Shown: positions 24,870 through 25,258 of the stretch, one piece after another
Layout of the letters: each line of letters opens with the position of its first letter
Position numbering within the stretch: position 1 is the stretch's first letter
Notes under the pieces: model-generated
What the model was told of the DNA's origin: nothing
Seen by the model: the letters and a program-made list of their open reading frames with translations, nothing else
Databases searched by the model: none
Made by a program: the position numbers and the translations under genes
Assembly: GCF_040958095.1 (NCBI RefSeq)
Contig: NC_091175.1
Span: 15,919,794 to 15,983,793, forward strand
DNA length: 64,000 nucleotides
Origin: Procambarus clarkii
Lineage: Eukaryota > Arthropoda > Malacostraca > Decapoda > Cambaridae
Direction of reading: 5' to 3'

Positions 24870-25258
24870 GTCGTACCTAGTAGCCAGAACTCACTTTTCA
24901 GCCTACAATGCAAGGCCCGATTTGCCTAATAAGCCAAGTTTTCATGAATTAATATATTTTCTCTAATTTTTTTCTTATGAAACGATAAAGCAACCCATTT
25001 CATTATGTAAGAGGTCAATTTTTTTTTATTGGAGTTAAAATTAACGTAGATATATGACCGAACCTAACCAACCCTACCTAACCTAACCTAACCTATCTTT
25101 ATAGGTTAGGTTAGGTTAGGTAGCCGAAAAAGTTAGGTTAGGTTAGGTTAGGTAGGTTAGGTACTCGAAAAACAATTAATTCATGAAAACTTGGCTTATT
25201 AGGCAAATCGGGCCTTGCATTGTAGGCTGAAAAGTGAGTTCTGGCTACTAGGTACGAC
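24870..25258. mobile_element. Palindromic element A, copy 1, with TTAGG core
   Basis: 389 bp. The terminal arms 24870-24953 and 25175-25258 are perfect 84-bp reverse complements, beginning GTCGTACCTAGTAGCCAGAA and ending at GAATTAAT. The interior holds about a dozen TTAGG/CCTAA pentamers in both orientations (25065-25165), the arthropod telomere motif, and forms its own hairpin. Both sides are (AT)n. A second full copy of identical length lies inverted at 41868-42256. No protein is encoded. Confidence 0.92.

Follow-up and report, generated by a model that had tools for sequence, protein, structure and literature searches.

The question raised by this locus is what kind of unit lies at 24870–25258 of the 64-kb window (the whole stretch of Procambarus clarkii DNA analysed here), where a 389-bp palindrome with TTAGG pentamers in its centre is set directly between (AT)n tracts. 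An initial annotation took it for a discrete mobile unit, present in two inverted full copies and one single-arm copy, and proposed that the core could come from telomerase- or retroelement-templated synthesis. The features of the window that bear on the question are listed below.

24744–24869, no strand: (AT)n tract left of copy 1, with a single G inside, at 24790
24870–25258, + strand: copy 1, the 389-bp palindromic element, itself among the 40 scored genome matches
24870–24953, + strand: left arm of copy 1, 84 bp, perfect complement of the right arm
25057–25163, no strand: core of copy 1, CCTAA/TTAGG pentamers in both orientations (pieces 25057–25095 and 25102–25163)
25175–25258, − strand: right arm of copy 1, 84 bp
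25259–25340, no strand: (AT)41 tract right of copy 1
25635–25734, no strand: (AT)50 tract preceding the truncated copy
25735–25787, + strand: truncated copy, 53 bp of one arm, 92% identity
41776–41867, no strand: (AT)46 tract adjoining copy 2
41868–42256, − strand: copy 2, core orientation opposite to copy 1, 95.9% identical
42257–42346, no strand: (AT)45 tract adjoining copy 2

Palindromic copies in the window

Both full copies are 389-bp palindromes in (AT)n and are inverted relative to each other, as initially described: copy 2 was identical to the reverse complement of copy 1 at 373/389 positions, and in direct orientation at only 227/389. The perfect 84-bp arms reported for copy 1 were confirmed (84/84 positions complementary), as were the pentamers in both orientations in its centre; the outer arms of copy 2 matched at 82/84 positions. 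With its (AT)n included, the inverted repeat of copy 1 extends to 174-nt arms that are 98% complementary, and folding of copy 1 as a single strand gave −144 kcal/mol, whereas 100 shuffles averaged −34.7 (z = −31). The single-arm copy at 25735 also held up. When this piece and its 448 downstream bases were used as a genome query (40 of 234 candidates scored), the listed matches lay within the first 55 bases, the exceptions being the self-match and one match to query positions 146–266. That the matches stop there indicates that the piece is a truncated copy. Elsewhere in the window, a run of N-type bases (X in translation) occupies about 43360–43880.

A large dispersed family with exact ends

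In the searched assembly (4.03 Gb, 2,308 contigs), the exact 20-mer of the arm end occurred 152,364 times (76,156 + 76,208) and a reversed control pattern 0 times, so the palindrome did not arise by chance. The first 100 listed places, all within one 3.7-Mb stretch, contained 39 pairs and 22 single ends. On this basis we put the share of exact arm ends at 78% and the size of the family at approximately 98,000 copies, corresponding to about 38 Mb or about 1% of the genome. These copies are dispersed over many contigs, and some are solitary.

A genome search with copy 1 gave 1,058 candidates, and all 40 that were scored (copy 1 included) aligned over at least positions 2–389. These matches and copy 2 make up a set of 41 copies that is biased to good ones; within it the element started at position 1 in 40 copies, the exception (L004) being without the first G, GGTACGAC terminated all 41, and lengths ranged from 388 to 390 bp. 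The same loci, duplicated ones included, contain 108 elements whose two arm ends are both complete; 58 of them were 389 bp long and 88 were 388–390 bp. Mean identity to the consensus was 96.3% (range 91.8–98.6%) for 46 elements with at least 300 aligned bases from 20 loci, which were hand-picked from the first 100 listed places by exact arm ends, a choice that favours young copies. The ends were thus not variable in the copies read, and the claim of a discrete unit with defined ends was borne out by exact ends, constant length and dispersed copies. A 49-bp miniature copy, with both element ends and nearly no interior, was also seen between (AT)n tracts (L007, 1982–2030).

The two arms of one element were slightly more alike than arms of different elements: in 117 of 120 elements, own arms differed by 4.38 mismatches in 84 versus 4.86 for shuffled arms, and 0/2,000 shuffles were as low as the observed value. 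Most of this excess came from two sites, at which 18 and 19 copies, respectively, carry the change in both arms. We interpret this as subfamily structure; sequence exchange within a copy, from one arm to the other, could also have contributed.

(AT)n setting and phase

The unit is discrete and dispersed, and its copies lie almost exclusively in (AT)n. Counting arms with the exact 20-mer, which places strongly diverged copies outside the count, TATATATATAT (TA11) directly preceded 132,632 of the 152,364 arm ends (87.0%). Of the arms at the first 100 listed places, ten lacked TA11, and all ten were read; nine lay in interrupted (AT)n and one had 11 nt of A/T. In the set of 41 copies, (AT)n was present on both sides of every one (the tract of L019 being broken after 6 nt), which bears out the reproducible flanks noted initially. 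The base directly before the arm was T in 151,841/152,364 cases (99.66%), A in 296 (0.19%) and G or C in 227 (0.15%); there are hardly any exact arm ends outside AT sequence.

The phase of insertion was constant, namely ...ATAT/GTCGTACC...GGTACGAC/ATAT..., where slashes mark the element boundaries. A target duplication of odd length in (AT)n would leave one arm preceded by T and its partner by A, with A then expected at about half of the ends. Since A was found at only 296, an odd (9-bp) target duplication is excluded, leaving either none or one of even length. An even-length duplication is invisible inside (AT)n, and 8 or 10 bp would be compatible with the phase. PF09588 (YqaJ exonuclease) is a mark of ISL2EU elements, whose AT duplication would fit the observed phase as well.

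Filled and empty (AT)n sites

To compare sites with and without the element, we turned to a host repeat on one contig (C1), whose two non-palindromic parts, of 175 bp (X) and 140 bp (Y), are joined by (AT)n. Its loci (L054–L073) lie at about 0.9–4.1 Mb, so that all 12 X–Y junctions come from one part of C1. Six of these junctions were empty, five held the element and one held other DNA (L070). The empty junctions (L054, L055, L060, L071, L072 and L073) consisted of 84–227 nt that were 99–100% A/T. A single element occupied the L063 junction, with AT-rich flanks of 78 and 39 nt; the junctions of L056, L057, L059 and L064 had two elements each, with approximately 800 nt of other DNA in L057. The edges of X and Y were nearly identical in empty L073 and filled L063, and L060 was short of a few bases at the X edge. 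Empty (AT)n sites therefore exist, and the tract can be present with no element in it. Some X–Y loci may be copies of one another, and the empty junctions fit insertion and later loss alike. Long (AT)n without an element was also present in the window, at 7516–7601, 23986–24069 and 38316–38440.

Arrays of elements

Elements are frequently close neighbours: distances below 700 bp were found in 19/60 cases versus 0.7 expected. Gaps shorter than 400 nt between two-armed elements (n=63, from 41 loci including the window, duplicated loci kept) were purely A/T in 47 cases, and the only gap below 90% A/T was the one that holds the 49-bp miniature copy. We compared neighbours among 168 elements from 66 loci, keeping the partly duplicated C1 loci and leaving out L010, L012, L017, L032, L046 and L050 (duplicate or overlapping) and L040–L045 (prokaryotic or viral). 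Neighbour pairs (n=92) were 94.31% identical versus 94.45% for 3,000 random pairs from different loci, and 41 pairs had the same orientation and 51 the opposite one. That neighbours are no more alike than random pairs and are of mixed orientation means that arrays are built up by insertions independent of one another, with tandem duplication not the main route. Some whole segments are nevertheless duplicated among the loci, for example L009/L010, L016/L017 and L031/L032.

Of 251 units between (AT)n tracts in the fetched DNA, 180 belonged to the 389-bp family and 17 and 12 to the next two units, a ratio biased by loci chosen for holding the family, some of which overlap. Other repeats were observed beside simple sequence. 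A second, unrelated palindromic unit lies at 10148–10424 of the window between (TA)36 and (AT)35 tracts, its reading frame matched no Pfam family, and pieces related to it border (AT)n in L007, L030, L031 and L038. A third palindromic repeat (GACAATGTCAGACCACGG...) is found next to (AT)n tracts or enclosed by them in L005, L008 and L033 (e.g. L008, 1946–2164). Beside (AC)n, a similar short peptide remnant (ILRGIDRVDKDKLFST...) occurs at 20438–20989 (+) and 32131–32604 (−) of the window; it had no Pfam match, and to us it resembles a LINE tail with (AC)n preference.

The TTAGG core is a conserved part of the element

Pentamer number varied little between copies (n=107): there were 3–7 CCTAA and 5–12 TTAGG per copy, and 70/107 copies had 5 CCTAA with 8 or 9 TTAGG. 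The core aligned between copies and was flanked by conserved non-telomeric sequence and the arms; the growing or widely variable TTAGG array of a telomeric repeat unit was not seen. That the pentamers vary little in number and that the core can be aligned argue that it is ancestral sequence copied with the element. The proposed templated synthesis of the core by telomerase or a retroelement thus found no support for individual insertions, and neither telomerase nor a telomeric retroelement need act at each of them. Interstitial TTAGG signals are reported in crayfish in the available text of one study (PMC7859515), and it is tempting to speculate that a TTAGG-bearing dispersed unit might add to them.

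Search for the moving machinery and for relatives

Neither a transposase nor a longer element sharing the ends of the 389-bp unit came up among the pattern matches read, in the PF10551 search or among the two-armed copies read. The pattern used for a partner, (AT)n followed by GTCGTACC and five mismatching bases, had 36 matches, and the nine that were read contained no new long element: five were indel variants of the family (L074, L076, L077, L078 and L079), one was an internally truncated copy (L084) and three were arm tips cut short by (AT)n or other sequence (L075, L085 and L086). The longest two-armed copies read measured 1,397 bp (L014, 8–1404, reverse strand) and 730 bp (L067, 4076–4805). 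Both align to the consensus on either side of foreign DNA inserted in the core, and were rejected as autonomous elements, being ordinary copies interrupted by other DNA.

A search for PF10551 (MULE domain) gave two matches among 102 scored candidates:

L080, 958–3084, − strand: 708-aa open frame with FLYWCH and MULE domains
L081, 1243–2625, − strand: 460-aa open frame with ALS2CR8, ZSWIM-type RNaseH-like and MULE domains

At the threshold used, the 9-kb stretches around the two frames contained no inverted repeat, and they were also free of (AT)6, GTCGTACC and GGTACGAC. Both frames have the appearance of host genes, so that the explanation valid for the plant elements found no support within the 102 candidates scored. 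The ALS2CR8 domain of L081 is in keeping with an animal genome.

No coding sequence was recognised in the unit among frames of at least 150 aa and one 40-aa arm frame: no frame of at least 150 aa overlapped it, the unit itself has room for at most 129 aa, and no relatives of the 40-aa frame were found. The unit had no match in 50,697 phage records or in Rfam, and no published description of the family was found in the open-licence literature; none of the three thus supplied a known repeat that would fully explain it. A 16-mer (GTCGTACCTAGTAGCC) matched one IMG/VR contig and five bacterial contigs. The IMG/VR contig was dismissed as a relative, its sequence beyond the 16-mer being unlike the element, and the number of matches does not exceed what chance would give for a 16-mer in collections this large. 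Two internal element patterns had 0 matches in IMG/VR.

A MITE-like family that probably targets (AT)n

We conclude that the 389-bp unit is probably a non-autonomous, palindromic foldback/MITE-like DNA transposon family targeting (AT)n microsatellites. As in MITEs, the unit is short, with terminal inverted repeats, high copy number and exact ends, and related empty sites occur (6/12 X–Y junctions, for which insertion and loss are both possible); as in microsatellite-targeting elements of the Micron, SaTar and MuTAnT type, (TA)n adjoins most copies. The putative assignment to Class II draws on two features of the sequence, inverted repeats and exact ends. An enzyme encoded elsewhere would recognise the paired arms and cut the unit out or copy it. 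Joining would then take place at an AT step inside a long stretch of (AT)n, either with no target duplication or with one of even length hidden in (AT)n, and the TTAGG core would be carried along as ancestral sequence. Each landing would split the tract into two new targets, and with two new targets per insertion, arrays of element-(AT)n-element would be expected to grow by themselves.

That a transposase moves the unit seems to us likelier than the other explanations and has, we believe, a good chance of being correct. The rival that we take most seriously, unlikely as we hold it to be, is recombination between (AT)n tracts, in which the cell's own recombination would break or excise the palindrome, (AT)n flanks included, and insert it again, by homology, into other (AT)n. 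The unit would then be a transposase-free, self-amplifying passenger of microsatellites making up about 1% of the genome. This would explain the near-total restriction to (AT)n and the fixed phase, the arrays and the failure to find an autonomous partner, and also the occurrence of both orientations, because (AT)n is its own reverse complement; the extension of the copy 1 inverted repeat into (AT)n speaks for it too. Phase, mixed orientation and the missing partner are predicted as well by it as by a transposase. Simple exchange, however, leaves unexplained why a single unit has become so widespread (180 of the 251 units between (AT)n, from biased loci), and arms that complement each other exactly typically mark the substrate of an enzyme. 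The palindromic AT-rich repeats of human translocations are likewise long, hairpin-prone palindromes in AT-rich DNA; unlike the 389-bp family, they are not dispersed with exact ends. It is very doubtful that the (AT)n was instead made by insertion, with landing at a short AT/TA site and expansion of the flanks by slippage. Such a history would account for (AT)n beside almost every exact arm end, and post-insertion expansion is reported for maize TAFTA (as cited in the available text of PMC5907723), but the 84–227 nt of AT in the six element-free X–Y junctions are comparable to the 78 and 39 nt around the L063 element, and the window has long (AT)n tracts without any element.

Quite improbable, in our view, is a MULE-type MITE of the kind represented by Micron, MuTAnT, SaTar and the pineapple elements; as far as the available descriptions go, these have in common with the 389-bp unit the long palindromic terminal repeats, (TA)n on both sides and arrays. 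With a 9-bp duplication, however, about half of the arm ends would be preceded by A, far from the 0.19% observed, and both PF10551 matches among the 102 scored candidates are host-gene-like with no arm ends nearby; a 10-bp duplication, as described for guayule, would be compatible with the ends. A satellite, in which tandem units are multiplied by unequal crossing-over, is highly unlikely: arrays with (AT)n spacers and duplicated segments such as L009/L010 are what it would produce, but as a general mechanism it is contradicted by neighbours that are no more alike than random pairs and lie in mixed orientation, and copies are dispersed, some of them solitary. Scarcely credible is a unit derived from telomerase or a telomere retroelement with freshly templated TTAGG, which the pentamers in the core would suggest; for individual insertions it is contradicted by the small variation in pentamer number and the alignable core, which is embedded in conserved non-telomeric sequence and arms.

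Comparison with known elements

In architecture and behaviour the 389-bp unit corresponds to microsatellite-targeting foldback MITEs as these are described in the text available. MuTAnT of Medicago truncatula is described there as a 292-bp near-complete palindrome with 144-bp arms, specific for TA microsatellites, with a known MULE partner and 218 copies, 14 of them outside perfect (TA)n and with 9-nt duplications (PMC4486113). A palindrome in TA repeats is common to both families, but the 389-bp family is far more numerous, excludes an odd duplication and is one for which no MULE partner was found. SaTars of guayule and rice, which include Micron, are presented in the accessible part of their description as non-nested arrays of small inverted-repeat elements with microsatellite flanks, often (TA)n (PMC5907723). 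Micron is 380 bp long, with 492/510 copies microsatellite-flanked; SaTar arrays mix unrelated families and have MULE partners, and in guayule 11/15 families include members carrying 10-bp duplications outside microsatellites (PMC5907723). By contrast, the 389-bp arrays read hold mostly one family, with exact arm ends outside AT almost absent, and SaTars are found in plants.

The pineapple Ac-mMITEs comprise 28,426 and 24,588 elements in two families with (TA)n on both sides and, according to the available text, cluster by adjacent insertion and have no autonomous partner found (PMC8449440). They resemble the 389-bp family in all three respects and differ from it in that 1,435 full-length copies have 9/10-bp duplications and that they are assigned to Mutator (PMC8449440). 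The nearest published arthropod parallel found, within the text at hand, is the ATon group of Aedes aegypti, whose members have inverted terminal repeats, insert at AT with a T and an A immediately within their ends, and have an autonomous partner given as unknown; 26 families with about 6,000–6,500 copies have AT dinucleotides as targets (PMC3422177). Read as A/TGTCG...CGACA/T, the ends of the 389-bp unit fit the ATon rule, a comparison by description only, as the exact step is hidden in (AT)n. Unlike the 389-bp family, ATons are not described in that text as restricted to (AT)n (PMC3422177). The portion of a decapod repeat survey available to us notes no such element (PMC10454600).

The published microsatellite-targeting families that we found are, in the text available, plant MULEs. 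A family of this size in an animal genome, almost wholly confined to (AT)n, in fixed phase and with no MULE partner found, would mean either that microsatellite targeting arose independently or that there is a novel means of spreading. The 389-bp family could also account for some of the clustering of (AT)n tracts in the P. clarkii genome and for some of their interruptions, and it provides a clear-cut way to test how mobile elements choose simple repeats.
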